Below, one piece after another: positions 31,667 through 54,394 of a stretch of 64,000 nucleotides of DNA. The translations under genes were made by a program, and so were the position numbers. A model generated the notes under the pieces. The model did not search any database, was not told the DNA's origin, and worked only from the letters and a program-made list of their open reading frames with translations. Source of the DNA: Ignavibacteriota bacterium (lineage in GTDB: Bacteria; Bacteroidota; Ignavibacteria; UBA10030; SZUA-254); assembly GCA_016212665.1 (NCBI GenBank), contig JACREZ010000002.1, positions 79,509-143,508 on the forward strand, read 5' to 3'. Each line of letters opens with the position of its first letter. Positions within the stretch are counted from its first letter, which is position 1.

Positions 31667-34600
31667 CTATAGCAACTTTCCAGAAAGGACATTCATCTCT
31701 CTGATTATTTCTTCTAACTTTAATTGAATGGCTGGATTTGCAATAACATAGGGCTTCATTGCAAGGGTTTCCAAAGTATCAACTGCTTTCTGAGCAAGAG
31801 AAACCATAGTGCCAATATTCTGCAAGTTTGAGACGATCGCGCGTTTGGCTACTTGATGATAGACTTCTAAAAGAGATTCCAAATGATGTTTCGTCTTGTC
31901 AGTCAGCATATCGAAACAGACCTCAATTACTACTTTGAGTTTAATCGGGTCAAAGTTACATTCCTGATCAAGTTTCATCATGGCTGACGTAATAATGACA
32001 GTTCGATCAGGAAAGTCCAACTCAACAATATTTTCACCTCTTAATACTGATTGTATCTTAGATACAATATCTACATCTTGAGAATCATCTTCCCCATCAG
32101 GAGGACTGATGCTAAGCCACAGCCGAAAAAAATGTTTGGAAAACAACTCAACAAAGTATTGCGCATCTATCCAGTTCTGCATAATGAGGTAGAAAGTTTC
32201 AAAGTTTCTCTTAACAAACTTACTCAAATCTCGAATCTCAACAGTCAAGATGAAATCAAAATAGATCCGATTGTGTATAATCACATACAAGTAATTGATA
32301 ACAATCGCAAGTCGATGACTCTTGAACAACCAATTTGCTGCTTTGCCTTGATAATCCGATTGTAAGTGTTGATTTTGACCATAAAGCCAACCTAGTACGG
32401 ACATAATAAATGCACATAATTTAGATTTGGATGGCTCACTCAGTTCATCACAACGAGCAAGAAAGTAAAGAAGAGAATCTTCCGCTCGAGTGAAAGATAT
32501 CTGATTATCGTATTTTTCAATAATTGAGTTCACCACAGGTATTACCTCAAGCGTGAGAATTGTATCAAAAAAATTCTTGTCTCGAAGGGAAGTCGGTAGT
32601 TCAACATCATTAATTTCATTAAGAAGACGGAATTGGTTTACGATACATCGAAAAGCACTTTTCAAATCTCGAAGGCTTTTGAGATAAGGATGAAACTTCA
32701 TCAGCGTGCCTACGGCCAAAATCTTATCGTTGCTTTTGGTAAGAGAAAACATCGACACTTGTTCAAAGATCGAGATACCCTTATCTGGCAAACCAACATG
32801 TGCAAGAGTTGTTGCCAAGAGTAATTTGACTTTTATAATTGATAACTCAGGACTTCGATAATCCAGTGTCTTGTTATACATGCCAAAGTATGGTTTTACC
32901 CATGGCTCATTTGACTTTGTCCCATCAGGATTGACTAGTTTACCATCCCAATTACCATCCAGCGTAAATGTTAGCCAGCCAAGAGAATGAGATATGATTT
33001 GCATGTATCCCGCAAGTTCAGGATTGTTCAACATGCTGACCATAATTGAAAAGCATTTTGCTGAGTTATAATATTCGTTGATATGGATATAGAAGGTTGA
33101 CATATCTCCAAGAGTTTCCAAACTATTCTGCTCACGACGGGTACCTAAGTTTCGGGCCATTGACAGTGCCTTAAAAAAATTCTTTTTGGCATCCATATTC
33201 AGGCCTAGTTCGGATTGGGAGATTGCTGCCCTTCGATATGTATGTAGTAATAGAAAATCCTTGATATTTGAGGTTTCAAAAATTTTGATGCTCTCTTCAT
33301 ATTTCATCAAAGCACTTTTATAATCCTTTGATTTGTAATAACAATCTGCCATGCCTACTATGATTTCTGCAAGAATCTTGTTATCAGAAAGGTCACTAGA
33401 TACGTGGGTATTCTTTGCTCGATCAAAATGTTGAAGCGTTCGATGACAGTCATTTGAGAGGTCATTTAGAAGACATCCTATTAGATAGCTAATATCTCTT
33501 GTTGCTGATAAGTGTGCATTGACTTCGAACAGATTTCTTAGTTCCTCCAAGTCAGAGATTGCTTCCTCCAAAGTAGTTACCCTCGATGGGTCAATGCTCA
33601 AATTACGATATAGCTTGGTAAATAATATTTGGAAAAAATCTGATAGTTCCTTCTTTCTAAAAACTCGCGAAAGTTCTATCTTTGCCGCCGAATACGCCTT
33701 CACGAGGAGCACTAACAAATCGATTCTCGGTTTTTCCTGTCTGGCGATGAAATAAAACGGGACGCTCAAAACTTGATTCATGAATTTGGGGTCGGTTAGT
33801 TCCTTTGGTAATCGCTCCTGAGTAATGATTTGAACCATCTTGATGGCGCAATTTATCGACTGTTCAGATCTCTCTGGATCATGGGAATAGTGGTAAATGA
33901 GATAGATATGGCGAAAAAGACGATTTACTGGATCAAGAGAAGAGGTAGGCATCGCGAGAACTTTTGCCAATATCCGGTCCTGATTTTTGACATCCTTAAG
34001 TTGGTGATAAGTCTTAAGTGCCAAAATCAAGATGAGTAAATATTGATTGTTATATTTTGGCTCAAGGTCAAGGTTAAAAAAAATATTAAGCTCATTGATA
34101 ACATATCGTATTGTGGTAATATCTTTATCCTCAAGAATAATTCGACTCAATAGAAGTCCACATCTTCTTAGAACTTCATCGATCTTGCCAGCCATGAGAA
34201 AATAAAAGCAGGACTGCGTAGCGTCTTTAAAATCGACAGTGCCTCGTCGCGGAGTAAACAGATAATCCGCAGCAGCCGAATGTATATTTCGTTTTTCATC
34301 ACTTGAAAGATTGTTTATCCCAACTCTTTGAAAGAGGGTTGGGACAGAGAATCTTGAATTTGGATACACATCAAGAAACTTGTTACTTATCAGCTGAAAA
34401 ATCATCCCAGCATCTGCGACCTTTGGATCAATGCTTGCCAAGTATTCTGCAAGCTCCCCTGAAAACTGACCAGTCAGAGCACAAAGACGGTTGAACATCC
34501 TCTTTCCATCGGTTGTTTGAAGGTGAACATTGTAAATTCGATTCGCGATAGCTTCTGTGATCGCCTCCGAACCTCCCACATTCTTCCATCCAGCAATCAC

Positions 34601-35833
34601 CTTTTCAACCAAGACTGCCACTGTATGCCTTGTACTTGCGGCCGAATTTATTTCTGTAATTAATCCATTGATAAAATCGGGATGCCCAGATGTCCCCACT
34701 CTAATCAAAGTCAACAAGTTCTCATTAACACCTTCGACATTACAACCACTAGCTTTCATCAACTCCATGATCTCCTCTTCGTCGAACCCATTTAGTTCCA
34801 TGACATTGCTATGTAATGCAAGAGTTGCAGAGGGGTTCAGGGTATCCCGATCTTCCGAGATTAATATCACCTTGATTGAACCATTGGATTCTTTCAGAAG
34901 GATCTCGAGAAAAGCGAAAAGTCCGTTGAATACTGAGACAGATTGGATGTTATCTAATACGATCAACTGGAAAGTTGAACCATGAATTTGCTCTGTGCAA
35001 AGAGTAACTAATTTGTTAAGACTCAGTTCTCGGCTTATCCATTTCTCTTTAACATTGGCATTAGGGATAACCGAGTCAAGAAAATGTACGAGGTCGTTAA
35101 AGATAAAATTATCACCCACACCCTGATTCACTTTGAAATCGTACCAATAGTAGTTTGCGATGTTGAAGTCACTTACATACTGGCTTACAAGAAAAGTTTT
35201 GGTACTTCTGGTAACTCCATGAATAAACAGAAGTGGCTTCTGACTTAGCATTCCATTAATAATATTGGTCTTATGTTTCCTTTCAATAAAGTCGTTAGGT
35301 ACCTTTGGAGCTTTTTGAGCAATGTATTCAAGGTTGATACTTTCAGTGACTTGAGCACTCCTGGAAAGAATTGATTTTACCCCGTCATCGATTTGTTTGA
35401 GAAGGGAGAACTGCTCCAACTCAGAGGGAGTTCTGCTTTGGCGCACCATGCGAACAAAAATCGCGGAGAATTGTTCAAGCTCTTTCTCAACATCGACATT
35501 CACGTTCTTTAGCTCATGTACCTGTGTATTTGTGTGAAGGAAATGGTCCAGAGCGATAAGTGTTTTGCCAGTATCTCCATCGTACAATTCTTGTCTATAC
35601 GCGGTCTGTACATCTTCAAAGGCAAAGAGTTTAAGGATATCGGCATGTTTATTTTCAGCGAAACGAACTAGGGCACTCACATAAACTGATTGGAAATCAG
35701 GTTTAAGCGTGGGGATATCAAGACCCAACTCCCTTATGATTAGCTGGTATCTCACATTCGATTCTAGTTTCTCTTTGGAGTACTTCCCAAGGAGAGAAAG
35801 TGCCTTCACCAATATAGTTTCAACGACTGGCAT
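31667..35833 (-). CDS. STAND-like ATPase with TPR-type helical repeats, degenerate P-loop
   Basis: 1388 aa from the ATG at 35833 (TTG codons at 35851 and 35848 are alternative starts). Order: helical N-terminal region (~1-165) with VDVEKELEQFSAIFVRMVRQ, a linker VPNDFIERK, an NTPase core with PLLFIHGVTRSTKT (residues ~201-213), and LIVLDN as Walker B (~290-295), then a winged-helix-like stretch, and from ~550 on a long alpha-helical array with TPR-like units (ILAEIIVGMADCYYKSKDY, SALMKYEESIKIFE). The overall plan is STAND/NACHT, as in signalling and anti-phage sensors. The P-loop reads GVTRSTKT, with Thr where Gly normally precedes Lys. No effector domain was recognised. The small gene 35867-36172 lies 33 bp upstream. 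Confidence 0.75.
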   Translation of the reverse strand: MPVVETILVKALSLLGKYSKEKLESNVRYQLIIRELGLDIPTLKPDFQSVYVSALVRFAENKHADILKLFAFEDVQTAYRQELYDGDTGKTLIALDHFLHTNTQVHELKNVNVDVEKELEQFSAIFVRMVRQSRTPSELEQFSLLKQIDDGVKSILSRSAQVTESINLEYIAQKAPKVPNDFIERKHKTNIINGMLSQKPLLFIHGVTRSTKTFLVSQYVSDFNIANYYWYDFKVNQGVGDNFIFNDLVHFLDSVIPNANVKEKWISRELSLNKLVTLCTEQIHGSTFQLIVLDNIQSVSVFNGLFAFLEILLKESNGSIKVILISEDRDTLNPSATLALHSNVMELNGFDEEEIMELMKASGCNVEGVNENLLTLIRVGTSGHPDFINGLITEINSAASTRHTVAVLVEKVIAGWKNVGGSEAITEAIANRIYNVHLQTTDGKRMFNRLCALTGQFSGELAEYLASIDPKVADAGMIFQLISNKFLDVYPNSRFSVPTLFQRVGINNLSSDEKRNIHSAAADYLFTPRRGTVDFKDATQSCFYFLMAGKIDEVLRRCGLLLSRIILEDKDITTIRYVINELNIFFNLDLEPKYNNQYLLILILALKTYHQLKDVKNQDRILAKVLAMPTSSLDPVNRLFRHIYLIYHYSHDPERSEQSINCAIKMVQIITQERLPKELTDPKFMNQVLSVPFYFIARQEKPRIDLLVLLVKAYSAAKIELSRVFRKKELSDFFQILFTKLYRNLSIDPSRVTTLEEAISDLEELRNLFEVNAHLSATRDISYLIGCLLNDLSNDCHRTLQHFDRAKNTHVSSDLSDNKILAEIIVGMADCYYKSKDYKSALMKYEESIKIFETSNIKDFLLLHTYRRAAISQSELGLNMDAKKNFFKALSMARNLGTRREQNSLETLGDMSTFYIHINEYYNSAKCFSIMVSMLNNPELAGYMQIISHSLGWLTFTLDGNWDGKLVNPDGTKSNEPWVKPYFGMYNKTLDYRSPELSIIKVKLLLATTLAHVGLPDKGISIFEQVSMFSLTKSNDKILAVGTLMKFHPYLKSLRDLKSAFRCIVNQFRLLNEINDVELPTSLRDKNFFDTILTLEVIPVVNSIIEKYDNQISFTRAEDSLLYFLARCDELSEPSKSKLCAFIMSVLGWLYGQNQHLQSDYQGKAANWLFKSHRLAIVINYLYVIIHNRIYFDFILTVEIRDLSKFVKRNFETFYLIMQNWIDAQYFVELFSKHFFRLWLSISPPDGEDDSQDVDIVSKIQSVLRGENIVELDFPDRTVIITSAMMKLDQECNFDPIKLKVVIEVCFDMLTDKTKHHLESLLEVYHQVAKRAIVSNLQNIGTMVSLAQKAVDTLETLAMKPYVIANPAIQLKLEEIIREMNVLSGKLL

Positions 35834-35866
35834 CTTAGCAGTCCCCAACAATTTGCCTTATTCGTC

Positions 35867-47389: not shown

Positions 47390-47439
47390 ACTGCGGCAAG
47401 AAGATAACCGTTTCGTTTCCGAAAAGCAAGCAATTCTCG

Positions 47440-47527
47440 CGGATTGGAGTGTTGGAGATATGGAGAATTGGAGAATTACTCCATTACTCCATTACTCTAA
47501 AACTCCTTTACTCCACTACTCCAATTT
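47440..47527. repeat. Quasi-repeat spacer with complementary halves
   Basis: The left part repeats TTGGAGTGTTGGAGATATGG-like words, the right part ATTACTCCATTACTCCATTA, so the two halves are mutually complementary and could fold into a long imperfect hairpin. It fills most of the gap between bshA and the 2288-aa gene. Confidence 0.5.
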
Positions 47528-50500
47528 TCAATCACACTTCCTCAATATCAGTTTTCCATCGCTGCTCACTTTCACCCAATACGCTTTACATGGTTTGATG
47601 ATTGATGAAGTAACATATCCATCCTGATAACTAAAGAATGGTGTTTCAATAGTTGTACCTTCTGTGTTGATACATACTGTACTTACTGTATCACTCATCG
47701 AACCAATCATATTCCATCCGGCACAAACATCAATCGTATCTTCTGAAATTATTCCACCCGAAATAATTCTATTCGATGTAGTATCAGAAAACATTAACCA
47801 ATAGCCGACGCCGTTGCTTAATGTATCTGTCCCAACGTAGCCTGCATTACAACTGAAAGAAAATGTTTGAGAAGCATTGTCAGGAAAAACACTATCCTCA
47901 TCCATTTGACTAAGAACAACCGGAACAGAAACCATATTCCACCGATTCAGTAACTCACACAGAACAGTTTCCTCCTGCCTGTTGCCAAAATTCCGGTTAA
48001 CATGATTACTCCCGCTGTATATTATTTCCGGGCAAACAGGCAACAAAGTAAATTCCCATCCCTCACGCATCTCTTCCGACAAACAATATTCTCCATACTT
48101 CAACGAATCAAACATAAATTCTCCGTTGACGTTTGTTGTTGTTGAATCAAGACGAAACGTTGGAGATGATTTTGTTAAATACATTTTCCACCCACTGAGT
48201 GGCGATTCGTTTTGTTCTTTTGTTCCATTCCCATTCCTGTCATTGAACATCATTCCGCTCATACTGCCAAGTTGGAAATTTCCAATATTAAGGGATGCAA
48301 GACTTTCTCCGCTGTGGAGCAAAACAATTTTAGGATTCGATGTCGTTTGAATCCATCCGCTCACTTCAACCTCACGGAGATAATACATTCCGGGCTTGAG
48401 ATTGGAAAACTGATATTCACCGCTTCCATTCGTCTGAGAAATCGGTTCACCCGTATCAAGATTTTCATTGAGATTTAAATCCAAATACATGATTCTGCCT
48501 TGCAGCGTTTGTTCATTCCCATCCCAAACAGAATCTCCATCAATATCATGGAACTTTACTCCTGTAATATTTCCATGTTGGTAATTTGCAAAACTTACCC
48601 CGGTTGAGTTTTCTCCCGAGTGTAAAACAAAACTATAAACTCTTCCCCCTGCATTTTGCCCGCACGGAGAAACAATGCCCGAGCCTTGTCGCGGAAAACT
48701 CTGATACCAACCCGTGAACAAACTTTCTTCGACAATGTATGTCCCTGCCAATAAGCTATCAAATACGAAGTCTCCATTGCCGGACGTTACCGTTCTTTCT
48801 GCTAACGTACAACCCAGACGATACAATTTGATTGTCCAGCCGTTCATCGCTGAATCATTCGTTATCAGACTATCGGCAATTGCATCCTGATATTTCTTCC
48901 CACTGATACTGCAATATCGTGTGTTACCGAAATCTTTCCCAATGGCATTTGTTCCTGAAGTAACAGTAACAACATACGCACGTGTTCCGGCATTGGCGTC
49001 GCACGTTGTAAGAGTAACGCCCGATGCACCAACTCTCGGCACAGTCTGAATCCAACTTGTTTGCAAACTCTCTTCTACAATGTATGTTCCGGGTAAAAGA
49101 TTACTGAACGAGTAACCGGTTGTGGCATTTGTTACTGTTTCACTGACTAAACTGCACGTTCCCTGATTGAAGAGTTTTATTACCCACCCTGATTTTTTAA
49201 TGTCGTTAATGGAAATCAGACTGTCTGCATCATAGTCTTCGTATTTCATTCCGGTGATTGTTCCGTATTGGTAATTCCCGAAATCAACATTTGCAATTGT
49301 ATCACCGGAGGAAACGGAAAGATGATAAGAACGTTGTGCAGAATTCACTCCGCATGTTCGATAGCTGACATTCGGTGTTGTTGTTCGCGGGAATGTTTGG
49401 AGCCACCCGACTTCCAAACTTTCTTCGAGGATGTATGTTCCCGGTTCTAAATTCTGAAAACTAAACTCACCCTGTGATGAAGTTGTTGTTCGTTTTACTA
49501 ACTGACACGTTGCGGAATCGTATAACTTGATAACCCAATTATATCTTCCCAATTCTCCGTTCAACAAACTGTCTGCATTCATGTCAACTATTTTCTCTCC
49601 GCTAATCATCCCTCTCTGATAATTGCCAAAGTTCAGAGTATCAACCGTATCTCCGGCGGCGATGGTAATGGCGTAACACGAATCCGGCATTGACCGAACC
49701 CATCCGGCTCTGTTCTCTTCACAAATAGTGTACGTGCCGGGAAGAACATTCGAGAATGTATAACGACCGATTGCATCGGTTTGTGTGGTTTCACTTGATA
49801 CGCCGGAAAGATGGATATTCCAGCCTTCCAACACTGCATCATTCCCGTCTTTGATTCCGTTGCCGTTTAAGTCATGAAACTTCAATCCGCTTATTGAACC
49901 TGTAATAACAGCAAATGTTACAAGAATTATATGATCTTCTGTTACATTCGAGAACGTATAACCTTCAAGTGAATCCACTTTGCTCCCATCAACAATTACA
50001 CTATTGACATGATAATTCAACGAAGGTGTAAATGTAAATCTCTGACTCCCTCCATACAAAATTTGTACAGAACCGGAAGGAGTGATTGAACCATTCTCAC
50101 CTGCTGTCGCAGTAATGAGTAAAGTATCAATTGCAAACGTAGCAATAATATTCTTATTGCGGTTCATTGTGATAGTAAGGGAATCTGCTGAGTTTGTTGT
50201 GTCTCCGCTCCAACCGACAAAGTGATAACCTGTCGAAGGAATCGCTTTTAGTCCAACGATAGAACCAGCATCATATAAGTCTTGATCAGGTGTTTTGCTG
50301 ACTGTTCCATGTTCCGCATTCACAGTAAGCGTGTAATGATTCACTGCAAAAACAACTCTGATAGTGTGATTTTCGGTTACATTATTAAACGTATAACTTG
50401 TACTTGAATCAACTGCTATCCCATCAATGAGTAAACTATCAAAATGATAACCCGTTCCCGGTGAAAACAAATATTGAATGTTTGTGCCGTAGTTTACCAC

Positions 50501-53500
50501 TTGGGTATCCACTGGTGTGATTGTTCCATTTCCTATAACTGAAGAAATAACGTTGAATTTTTGTTGATAAAGTCCGAAATTATACTCTGTCGTTGAACGA
50601 AGTGTATCGGTATAAACTACTACACTTCCAACTGAATCGAAAGCGCCAGTAAACGATGTGAATACAAGCTTCCCTAATGTATCAAGCGATGCTACAACCT
50701 TACCATAACCGCGAGACGATTCTCCATTGAGTGGAATTGAAGTGGCATCTGTCGCGTTTGAATTATAAAACGTACCTTCTTGAGTAGTATGGTGTATGTA
50801 GTATCCAAAATATGTTTTTTCTAATCCCGATGCCTTTGTTGGAGTCAGCCAAAGAGCATAGGCATCTTGAGCGACCTGATGCAAAGTAAAAATTATTTGA
50901 TTGAGATTTGAAATAATAGAATCTCTTCTCGTTGAATAACTTACTCGTTCCGGTACTGTCTGTTCCCAGCCAAAATCTACTGCACTTGTAAGAACGTAAC
51001 TTCCAGGCGCTACTCCTTCTGCTATGTAGTTACCCGTTACGTCTGTTTCTACCGTATCAATAGTTCTACCGGCAATGAAAACCTTTCCTCCATGAATGCC
51101 TTGTTCGGAAGGCTCTATATTGCCATTTCCATTTTCATCATTGTAAATTGTACCATGAAATGTATTTTTTGGAGTAAGATAAAAATTGTAACCGTATTGA
51201 TCCACGCCGTCTCTCCAATTTACTTTCCACCCATGTTCCTGAACATGTGCAAACGGAACAATATATCTTCCTGCAATAAACCCGCGAGTGCTACCACTTC
51301 CAGATGAAAATACTCCAAATGGTTCCAACTCTATCATTTCGGAAGGGAAGCCGTCGTAGTTTGAGACTCCCCACAATCTGATTTTTGTTGAAGTTGCAAG
51401 TTCAATAGTGTAAGTACCATAGGAACTACCGAATGAAGAAAGTGAATCTGGAATACTATAACCTACATATGAAAAATGCTCATGATAATACTTCGTAGCA
51501 TCTTCTGTTATCCGATAAAGAGTAGAAGTCAGTCCCCACAATTTTTCGTACAAGGTGTCGTTCCGGGGAATATTATGTTGAGGAGGACCCACGAGAAATA
51601 AACTATCGTTTGTTTCTTCGGCGATTGAATAAACACCTGACGGAATATCACTGAGAGAATAGTTGCCTTGTGCATCAGTTACTAAGACCGTATCAACGGG
51701 TCCTTGTACGTGTACGAGCCGACCTGAAAGCCTTGACACACTATCATACTGGCTGTGGTAAACCATTCCCGATATTTCATATGGTTTATTGCCAAAATTT
51801 ATTGATGTAATTTCTGCACTATCCGGCGTCACACGAACTAATGAAGTTCCCATAGTAAATCCATTATTGTCATATTCAATTAAACTACCGGTTGAATCAT
51901 ATGTTACAAAAAAGAAAAAATCAAAAGGAATGGAGTTAACAGCTTTCAACGCTATGCTACCTGTTTGAGAGTTACGAATTGTATAAGTTGCTATACTATC
52001 GTAACTGAGGTTTACCGGAATTTGGTACCCGACAAAAGAATGATTTCCAACTCCATAAAAATAATTTCGGGCATCACTTGCAATTGTTTCAAGTCTGCTG
52101 AATGCTGTCACTTCAAATTTTGAGCGCAACCACGTTTTGTTTTGATAACTTGTTTCAGGATACGTTTGAAACCAGTTTTCTTTCATCACTTCACTGACAA
52201 GATAGTTACCAAACGGTAAGTCATCAATGGAATAATTTCCTTGCTCATCGGTGACGGCTGCATGGTGGGACAGACCATCGAGTTTTACAGTCCAACCAAA
52301 AAGTGGAAGTTCACCGGGGTCATTCACAGCATTTCTGTTTGCATCGTGAAATAATGTGCCGGAAACGGTTCCTACGTTTATCATAGCAAAATCATAATGC
52401 TGCCCGGAAAATTGTGCAGAATCCGTTGCAATCGAATAATAGCCTAACGATGCAAAATCACCAGTTACAGAAGTAAAATTTACCCTTCCGAGTGAATCAG
52501 CAGAAGCCGTTACGGTTCCAAATCCATAAGCTGATGTAGCTTGGAAACTCACAGAAAATTGTGATCTCGAAACTACACTATATGTTGCAAAGCCTGGTAA
52601 AACAAGTCCGGGATTAGGATAATACCCCCAATAATCTCCTTCTCCACCACCTCGTGAACTTGGGGGAATACGAAAAAGTAAAGCATCATGAGCAAGCCGA
52701 TAAAACCAGGTTGTTACATCACGAAAATTATTAAGGACTGAATCCCGTGAATGAACAATAACACTTGGTGAAGGACTTGTTTGTTTCCAAGATTCATTTG
52801 TTCTCGCTGTAACATAATAACTACCGGGAAGAATGTTTGTAAACAAATAATTTCCATTACTATCTGTAACCATTGATGCATTCTCAGCGCCGGTAATAAA
52901 AATGGGAATTTGATAGACCCCATTTTCTTCTACCTCTTTTACTCCATCTAAAGTAGAATCATAGAAAACTACGCCGGTGATAGAACTGTTTTGGGAAACT
53001 GCAAAGTTGTAATTGAAGCGATCAAACTCATCATAATAATGAGGTTTAAGACCGTGGCTACCATCTTGAAAAAATGGAATAACATATTTTCCATTACTGA
53101 TTGTCGCCCCACCCGAACCCGAATTAGATTCGAATTGTCCGTTTTGATTCAGTGTGTAATTTTGAAATACTTCAACAAATCGTTTCGATGTTGCCTGTAT
53201 TTTTAACTGAAGAGAAGAGGCACTCACAATTGAAAAAGTCCCCTCAGGATTTCCTGAACCCGATAAAGAATCAGGAATAATATATCCTTCATACGTAGCA
53301 TGGTTGAGATAATAGTATATCGCATTATCAAATATTTGATAAATACCTTTCATGAGTTGGAACGAATTATTGTAAATACTATCATTAGAGGCAAGAGTAC
53401 TTTCCGGCGGTACAGTTTGCGTCCATCCTTCACTACTCACTAATTCAATAGAATAAATCCCTGACGGAATGTCACTAAAGACATAATATCCAAGTGTATC

Positions 53501-54394
53501 AGTAGATGTCGCTGTAGTAAAAAATGGTGAAGAAAGTAACACGGTCCTTCCACTAACTCCTCCGGTTTGATCGCGCATACTTGAAACAACCCGCCCACGT
53601 ACCTCGAATGGGAAGTACCCAAAATTTTTTTGTGTAACAGACTGACCAGTCGAAGTTATTTTGATAAAGTATGCATTGTTATAATAAGGTCCCCATGGAG
53701 TATATGATGCAATGGTACCATTACTATCAATGGTTACAGTAATACTTCCCCTTAAATAAGTCCATCGAACTGAAGAAGCAAGCAGTGTGAACGTTTTTGT
53801 TGATTTAGCGCTTATCGAATAGGTAGCCGCGCTATCACTTGTTAGAGAACCAGGAATTGTATAGTTAAGATAAGAACGCCCTCCCGATCCAAGATAATAT
53901 TGATATGCATTTTCACGGATTTGTTGTAAGCGTGTAAAAATAGTTCGTTCATTCTCATTAATATAATTTGTGAACCTCCGTCTTGGAGGAGTACGTGTCC
54001 AACCCTCTCTATTGTGAACTGTAACAAGATATTGCCCTATAGGGAGATTATTAAAAGAATAATTCCCGTTAACGTCAGATTCTGTTGTAAGGTTTACATC
54101 TCCTGAAAGGTTTACTGTCCAACCTTCCAATCCTTGTTCATTCACATCATAAATGGCATTTGTATTGAGATCATTATAGACTATTCCAGAGATGATCCCT
54201 TGTGTAGTCACACCTACTTTATCCATAGTATCGTCGTGTCTACTTCCCTGTGAAACGATATTTCTGTTCTCACTCATAAGATTATTGTCTGCATCGTATT
54301 GACGCTCAGCCCAAACTCCAGAATTAGTACCAATGAACATTATCACTAATCCAAACATGAATGTTCTCATTGATACAAATATAATATGTTGCAT
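47528..54394 (-). CDS. Giant secreted protein of SdrD-B-like modules
   Basis: 2288 aa. Signal peptide (FMFGLVIMFIGTNSGVWA). Residues 67-1279 are six composite modules of ~200 aa: an SdrD-B-like half (pattern GVVFxD...TDSNGNYxFxxxLPGxYxV) plus a second half opening with a helix (RLQQIRENAYQYYL) and a YTIP/YSIS-type beta part. Modules 1-3 and 4-6 match in order. Residues 1280-1496 are three InlB/ITP-like modules; 1497-2141 are six more SdrD-B-like modules without the second half; 2142-2288 is the GWN-type C-terminal domain shared with the endonuclease. A surface or extracellular adhesin-like role is likely. An AAGGAG box lies 7 nt before the ATG. Confidence 0.85.
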   Translation of the reverse strand: MQHIIFVSMRTFMFGLVIMFIGTNSGVWAERQYDADNNLMSENRNIVSQGSRHDDTMDKVGVTTQGIISGIVYNDLNTNAIYDVNEQGLEGWTVNLSGDVNLTTESDVNGNYSFNNLPIGQYLVTVHNREGWTRTPPRRRFTNYINENERTIFTRLQQIRENAYQYYLGSGGRSYLNYTIPGSLTSDSAATYSISAKSTKTFTLLASSVRWTYLRGSITVTIDSNGTIASYTPWGPYYNNAYFIKITSTGQSVTQKNFGYFPFEVRGRVVSSMRDQTGGVSGRTVLLSSPFFTTATSTDTLGYYVFSDIPSGIYSIELVSSEGWTQTVPPESTLASNDSIYNNSFQLMKGIYQIFDNAIYYYLNHATYEGYIIPDSLSGSGNPEGTFSIVSASSLQLKIQATSKRFVEVFQNYTLNQNGQFESNSGSGGATISNGKYVIPFFQDGSHGLKPHYYDEFDRFNYNFAVSQNSSITGVVFYDSTLDGVKEVEENGVYQIPIFITGAENASMVTDSNGNYLFTNILPGSYYVTARTNESWKQTSPSPSVIVHSRDSVLNNFRDVTTWFYRLAHDALLFRIPPSSRGGGEGDYWGYYPNPGLVLPGFATYSVVSRSQFSVSFQATSAYGFGTVTASADSLGRVNFTSVTGDFASLGYYSIATDSAQFSGQHYDFAMINVGTVSGTLFHDANRNAVNDPGELPLFGWTVKLDGLSHHAAVTDEQGNYSIDDLPFGNYLVSEVMKENWFQTYPETSYQNKTWLRSKFEVTAFSRLETIASDARNYFYGVGNHSFVGYQIPVNLSYDSIATYTIRNSQTGSIALKAVNSIPFDFFFFVTYDSTGSLIEYDNNGFTMGTSLVRVTPDSAEITSINFGNKPYEISGMVYHSQYDSVSRLSGRLVHVQGPVDTVLVTDAQGNYSLSDIPSGVYSIAEETNDSLFLVGPPQHNIPRNDTLYEKLWGLTSTLYRITEDATKYYHEHFSYVGYSIPDSLSSFGSSYGTYTIELATSTKIRLWGVSNYDGFPSEMIELEPFGVFSSGSGSTRGFIAGRYIVPFAHVQEHGWKVNWRDGVDQYGYNFYLTPKNTFHGTIYNDENGNGNIEPSEQGIHGGKVFIAGRTIDTVETDVTGNYIAEGVAPGSYVLTSAVDFGWEQTVPERVSYSTRRDSIISNLNQIIFTLHQVAQDAYALWLTPTKASGLEKTYFGYYIHHTTQEGTFYNSNATDATSIPLNGESSRGYGKVVASLDTLGKLVFTSFTGAFDSVGSVVVYTDTLRSTTEYNFGLYQQKFNVISSVIGNGTITPVDTQVVNYGTNIQYLFSPGTGYHFDSLLIDGIAVDSSTSYTFNNVTENHTIRVVFAVNHYTLTVNAEHGTVSKTPDQDLYDAGSIVGLKAIPSTGYHFVGWSGDTTNSADSLTITMNRNKNIIATFAIDTLLITATAGENGSITPSGSVQILYGGSQRFTFTPSLNYHVNSVIVDGSKVDSLEGYTFSNVTEDHIILVTFAVITGSISGLKFHDLNGNGIKDGNDAVLEGWNIHLSGVSSETTQTDAIGRYTFSNVLPGTYTICEENRAGWVRSMPDSCYAITIAAGDTVDTLNFGNYQRGMISGEKIVDMNADSLLNGELGRYNWVIKLYDSATCQLVKRTTTSSQGEFSFQNLEPGTYILEESLEVGWLQTFPRTTTPNVSYRTCGVNSAQRSYHLSVSSGDTIANVDFGNYQYGTITGMKYEDYDADSLISINDIKKSGWVIKLFNQGTCSLVSETVTNATTGYSFSNLLPGTYIVEESLQTSWIQTVPRVGASGVTLTTCDANAGTRAYVVTVTSGTNAIGKDFGNTRYCSISGKKYQDAIADSLITNDSAMNGWTIKLYRLGCTLAERTVTSGNGDFVFDSLLAGTYIVEESLFTGWYQSFPRQGSGIVSPCGQNAGGRVYSFVLHSGENSTGVSFANYQHGNITGVKFHDIDGDSVWDGNEQTLQGRIMYLDLNLNENLDTGEPISQTNGSGEYQFSNLKPGMYYLREVEVSGWIQTTSNPKIVLLHSGESLASLNIGNFQLGSMSGMMFNDRNGNGTKEQNESPLSGWKMYLTKSSPTFRLDSTTTNVNGEFMFDSLKYGEYCLSEEMREGWEFTLLPVCPEIIYSGSNHVNRNFGNRQEETVLCELLNRWNMVSVPVVLSQMDEDSVFPDNASQTFSFSCNAGYVGTDTLSNGVGYWLMFSDTTSNRIISGGIISEDTIDVCAGWNMIGSMSDTVSTVCINTEGTTIETPFFSYQDGYVTSSIIKPCKAYWVKVSSDGKLILRKCD

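Follow-up and report, generated by a model that had tools for sequence, protein, structure and literature searches.

The stretch of DNA analysed here (the window) comprises 64,000 nucleotides from an Ignavibacteriota bacterium (assembly GCA_016212665.1, contig JACREZ010000002.1, positions 79,509 to 143,508). Its minus strand encodes a giant surface protein of 2288 amino acids (aa), in which SdrD_B domains alternate with a second kind of domain that resembles the head of type IV pilins. Pfam gives 11 SdrD_B and three InlB-type B-repeat (Flg_new_2) matches in this protein; with an SdrD_B score of 319.5 bits over 11 stretches, against a Pfam cut-off of 29.7, it is clearly an SdrD_B-containing protein. 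Its parts are listed below by window position, residue n lying at 54394-3(n-1):

47528..54394, minus strand: giant surface protein, 2288 aa (open reading frame without internal stop)
54305..54394, minus strand: putative signal-peptide-like N-terminal segment, about residues 1-30 (hydropathy scan)
53603..54196, minus strand: module 1, type A, SdrD_B plus predicted pilin head, the head at about residues 136-264 (Pfam, head profile, AlphaFold, VIA-align)
52982..53602, minus strand: module 2, type B, SdrD_B plus predicted pilin head without GGG loop (module alignments, head profile)
52367..52981, minus strand: module 3, type C, SdrD_B plus predicted pilin head with the loop RGGGEGDYWGY kept (module alignments, head profile, BLASTP)
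51776..52366, minus strand: module 4, type A copy (module alignments, head profile)
51161..51775, minus strand: module 5, type B copy (module alignments, head profile)
50558..51160, minus strand: module 6, type C copy (module alignments, head profile)
47963..50557, minus strand: remainder, three InlB-type B-repeats, then more SdrD_B domains without heads (Pfam)
47528..47962, minus strand: C-terminal GWNxxS-type domain (37% identity to a domain in a relative, see below)

Each module starts with an SdrD_B domain of ~70 residues, followed by a distal domain of ~125 residues that has no Pfam match above chance and that we refer to as the head. The N-terminal segment is the most hydrophobic part of the protein in the hydropathy scan; its reading as a signal peptide was made by eye.

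A first-pass annotation, made from the sequence alone, had divided the array into modules of 198, 207, 205, 197, 205 and 201 residues and proposed that a block of three had been duplicated in tandem. The lengths and coordinates are exact (residues 67-264, 265-471, 472-676, 677-873, 874-1078 and 1079-1279), and the tandem duplication of the A-B-C block is confirmed. In global alignments of whole modules, pairs 1-4, 2-5 and 3-6 have identities of 36.3%, 34.6% and 30.8% with shuffle z-scores of 22, 24 and 21, compared with 24-34% and z-scores of 5.8-13 for the remaining 12 of the 15 pairs. This is also the best of the 15 perfect matchings of the six modules, scoring 861 against 608 for the runner-up with whole modules, 352 against 308 with the SdrD_B halves alone and 500 against 300 with the distal halves alone. 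As the same matching wins in all three cases, the block was copied as one unit. The nucleotide identity between paired modules is 45-49% and most of the identical residues are encoded by differing codons, so the duplication is ancient; the nucleotide identity rules out a recent one.

The same annotation had tentatively linked the distal domains to pilin heads, and this link is supported by profile searches in both directions, by profile-profile alignment and by predicted structure. We built a head profile from the six distal domains alone, with no pilins in it, and searched the whole of the bacterium's own genome (3.9 Mb). Besides the six domains, only three places matched (E 3.8e-15, 2.7e-10 and 9.3e-10), and all three are genes for pilin-like proteins of ~130 aa that lie in tandem on contig C6; the 47963..50557 part of the giant protein gave zero matches. 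The reverse profile, made from the three pilin genes, recovered four of the six heads (E 1.7e-5 to 0.002) and also hit the small protein L038. With hhalign, heads and pilins align at 97.7% probability (E 1.3e-12); the significant profile similarity is thus reciprocal, and the heads and the pilins belong to a common family. Single-sequence BLASTP finds 30-33% identity over ~100 residues. A motif string, GGG.GxYxGYxIP ... ATSxYGFGTV ... TGDF, is common to both; 43 of 47 pilins have its GGG loop, as do all three heads of a related protein (from genome G006, described below) and one of the six heads of the window.

The three own pilin-like proteins start MGQQQLLLIILGV and read MGQQQLLLIILGVIIVGVAI..., then SNxDAIxxDLxNLAAxAYQYxIRPxxMGGGxGxYxGY. 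Their genes adjoin a T2SSF (GspF/PilC) gene, and the matching cluster of a same-genus genome also holds a T2SSE (PilB-type) ATPase. A predicted pilin fold, together with the position beside GspE/PilB and GspF/PilC genes, identifies these proteins, here called MGQQQ pilins, as pilins. They lack the canonical leader ending in G/A and the Glu at mature position 5: MGQQQLLLIILG has a very short leader and no Glu. None of the three has a Pfam match above cut-off, and NCBIfam, consulted for one of them, has no family for it either; a PDB sequence search with the pilin gave only weak matches, to a Geobacter pilin (E 0.1). The best structural matches of the pilin model in the PDB are pilins, among them full-length PAK pilin at Z 9.3 (113 residues, rmsd 2.9) and PilV at Z 10.7 (86 residues, rmsd 1.9). 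MGQQQ-type relatives occupy at least 80 loci in Ignavibacteria, Kryptonia, Calditrichota, KSB1, Cloacimonadota and Balneolia. The pilin family MGQQQLLLI(I/V)LGV..., at L021:3291-4707 and at L097-L176, extends across the Ignavibacteria/FCB lineages and is without a name.

The AlphaFold check that had been proposed was made on module 1 and predicts a pilin-like distal domain. With pLDDT mostly 90-98, the model places a helix of 30 residues (73-102) before strands 124-131, 136-142, 151-156 and 162-168, the helix being packed on the antiparallel sheet as in the pilin head fold. The pilin model (mean pLDDT 88.9) has a helix of 54 residues (2-55) and strands 83-90, 95-101, 108-113 and 119-126. The order of elements is equal in the two models, and the strand lengths are 8, 7, 6 and 7 in the head and 8, 7, 6 and 8 in the pilin. 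Foldseek against the PDB ranks Neisseria PilV first for module 1 (probability 1.00, target-normalised TM 0.66), and type IV pilins fill the 11 best places in VIA-align (Z 11.5-8.1, residues about 68-180), headed by PilV at Z 11.5 over 91 residues with an rmsd of 2.0. In the same model, residues 1-66 align with a staphylococcal SdrD B domain (Z 8.0, 36% identity). Taken together, sequence and predicted fold establish the homology of the heads to the lineage's own pilins.

The heads keep only the last ~30 residues of the pilin helix, and its hydrophobic first half is absent. In pilins it is this hydrophobic half that anchors the subunit, both in the membrane and in the core of the filament; the heads should therefore not polymerise via the pilus machinery. 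Neither a class III signal nor a hydrophobic pilin helix stands before any head of the giant protein: in the hydropathy scan, the best 19-residue Kyte-Doolittle window after residue 40 reaches 1.6, against 3.2 in the own pilin, and the sole strongly hydrophobic segment, at the N-terminus, is not adjoined by a head, so that the protein does not have the N-terminus of an assembled pilin. Judged by their translations, the window neighbours of the giant gene are glycosyltransferase-like and ABC-transporter-like genes, and no pilus assembly operon lies among them; the own pilins are instead on contig C6, with T2SSF.

We sampled 391 genomes of the class and 395 of the phylum and scored the best 8-11 candidates of each, a scheme that may miss rare composites. 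Among the matches listed, SdrD_B and pilin head are combined in two of the 391 class genomes, the window's own and G006 (same family, other genus), and in none of the 395 phylum genomes beyond the window's own; the composite is, as had been anticipated in the first-pass annotation, unusual. The G006 composite has 1415 aa and exactly three SdrD_B-head modules, of which module 1 resembles window modules 1 and 4, module 3 resembles 3 and 6, and the divergent module 2 matches 2 and 5 weakly. Since G006 thus has one triplet with counterparts of A and C, the A-B-C triplet most likely predates the split of the two genera. The triplet-to-triplet identities (33.9, 34.9 and 32.4%) lie too close together to tell which came first, the duplication or the parting from G006.

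When heads and pilins are placed in one tree, 77% of bootstraps keep all nine composite heads together on the same side of a branch, and a single capture of the head from a pilin appears likely. The tree does not support an origin of heads A, B and C from one own pilin gene each: the composite heads cluster with one another instead of with pilin 1, 2 or 3. The direction of transfer was most likely from pilin to surface protein, because composites are rare and the pilins widespread, the head being present in 187 of the 391 class genomes. The same head is found at the end of other small proteins, among them the lipoprotein-like L038 of the own genome and L076 of genome G052; the L089 and L090 proteins have two heads each, and L096 comprises head proteins with membrane segments (L038:1141-1815, L076:1313-1939, L089:1030-2145, L090:196-1179 and L096:3541-4305; signal peptides, lipoboxes and membrane segments read by eye). 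These fusions support the head as a general extracytoplasmic module. The own genome is also unusually rich in SdrD_B-type surface proteins: such matches occur in many further open reading frames of about 700-3400 aa.

At its C-terminus the G006 relative has a sorting domain of the type IX secretion system (T9SS), scoring 29.2 bits against a cut-off of 23, and it is therefore expected at the cell surface. The GWNxxS-type domain that precedes this signal is 37% identical to the C-terminus of the giant protein, which ends right after the domain, at 47528, where the G006 relative continues into the T9SS signal. The giant protein has possibly lost the signal. A signal displaced past the stop codon was sought in any frame of the 138 bp up to the next gene, and none was found. 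After the stop codon, at 47435-47527, lies a short GGAGTAAT tandem repeat with a partly complementary CTCCA-rich stretch; the repeat is a small dispersed one, with similar copies at a few further genomic positions.

We conclude with high confidence that the giant protein is a secreted, adhesin-like surface protein whose SdrD_B array carries six type IV pilin heads, each made, by prediction, of the C-terminal half of helix 1 and a four-stranded sheet built into the repeat array. In the history that we propose, the head of a pilin gene would have been captured once beside an SdrD_B domain and multiplied into the A-B-C triplet before the window and G006 genera parted; then, or about then, the window lineage would have gained its second copy of the triplet. 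The protein would cross the inner membrane via its N-terminal signal-like segment and, on the surface, would present folded, stalkless pilin heads on SdrD_B spacers. There the heads may serve as soluble multivalent binding or spacer modules independent of pilus assembly, which is the weakest step of the scheme. Two features suggest this independence: the helix for membrane insertion and polymerisation is missing from the heads, and the GGG loop is eroded in most heads of the window. We give about an even chance to a multivalent adhesin-type role of the protein, with the heads as binding or spacer modules.

Several observations weigh against this picture. The alignment behind the module 1 model held pilin rows, so that the module and pilin models are not fully independent; the pilin-free head profile stands apart from that alignment. 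The Foldseek E-values against the PDB are weak (0.04), though the probability and the VIA Z-scores are high. The head tree is poorly resolved and has long branches, and a T9SS type A sorting domain is missing from the giant protein, though the signal has 150 matches elsewhere in the genome. Convergence on a small helix-sheet fold, in place of common descent, could account for a direct pairwise identity of only 30-33%; it is very improbable given an E-value of 3.8e-15 in the own genome with a profile free of pilins, a common motif string and near-identical strand lengths. A still more improbable reading makes the protein a modular pilin, that is, an assembled pilus subunit with grafted domains. 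The presence of pilin heads and adhesin-type domains in one chain does recall bimodular minor pilins such as PilB of Streptococcus sanguinis, in which a foreign module has been put onto a complete pilin (PMC8179133), but the missing class III signal and hydrophobic helix before the heads, the hydropathy maximum of 1.6 against 3.2 and the T9SS signal of the G006 relative all speak against it.

The function of the heads is where the alternatives are closer. As inert structural spacers they would form, with SdrD_B, a long stiff stalk that binds nothing. That SdrD_B is a known stalk domain with which the heads alternate, and that loops diverge between heads, would fit; a stalk, however, does not require alternation with a distinct domain, and types A, B and C have stayed distinct after the duplication, A and C also across genera, which suggests different roles. 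We regard the spacer reading as doubtful, and as unlikely a reading in which the heads are docking modules for the bacterium's own pili that pack on the filament subunits and anchor, cap or bundle the pilus at the outer surface. The heads and the three own pilins are of one family, and in the G006 relative the T9SS signal would bring the protein to where the pilus is, outside the cell. On the other hand, pilin-pilin packing in type IV pili is mostly via helix 1N, and it is this helix that is missing. Two further features are unexpected in a domain that has to fit a filament: the heads do not pair off one to one with the three pilin genes, and five of the six window heads have lost the GGG loop. 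The loss of the loop disfavours a need to pack in or against a filament and favours independent modules. We therefore rank adhesin modules, at about even, above inert spacers, and these above pilus docking.

The giant protein shares parts with several known systems. Modular pilins likewise combine adhesin-type domains with a type IV pilin fold in a single chain, but their pilin part still has its class III signal and its helix 1N, and the foreign module is displayed on the pilus, whereas in the giant protein the stalk is missing and the six heads are themselves the inserted modules of a surface protein. With SdrC/SdrD-type MSCRAMM surface proteins it has in common SdrD_B domains (one per module) and the nature of a secreted repeat surface protein; it differs in reaching 58 of the 1700 bits of the NCBIfam cut-off, in the alternation of SdrD_B with pilin heads and in that no LPXTG anchor is seen. 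The head domain equals that of the MGQQQ pilins by profile, hhalign and predicted fold. The MGQQQ pilins, however, are proteins of ~130 aa with a 54-residue N-terminal helix, encoded in pilus operons, and the composite has the last ~30 helix residues only and no membrane segment before its heads. The solved pilins of Neisseria (PilV, ComP, PilX) and Pseudomonas (PilA/PilE) are alike in the predicted fold of the heads, at less than 20% sequence identity, and are assembled pilus subunits. In the literature, with subscription journals partly covered, we found no paper that treats SdrD B-like domains together with type IV pilins and no match for the pilin N-terminus; the SdrD_B plus pilin-head architecture appears to be undescribed so far.

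Elsewhere in the window, at 31667-35851, lies the gene of a 1394-aa protein of STAND-type architecture, in which a NACHT N-terminal helical domain (NNH5) is combined with TPR repeats; it has no match in PADLOC.

The composite is the reverse of a modular pilin: a head without the assembly helix appears to have been put into a secreted surface protein and then multiplied there. It brings to light an unnamed pilin family and, in small envelope-type proteins, an unnamed head domain; both are missed by Pfam and NCBIfam, the heads having no family in either. We give somewhat less than an even chance to a reading in which this lineage has detached pilin heads from the pilus and put them to general use as an extracytoplasmic module, the six-headed surface array binding the ligand of the pilus itself or docking pili to the cell surface, as a hitherto undescribed, non-assembling display of stalkless pilins. 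As a rule, pilin heads lacking helix 1N exist only as artificial constructs for crystallography, so these native arrays would be a convenient means of testing what such a head binds alone.

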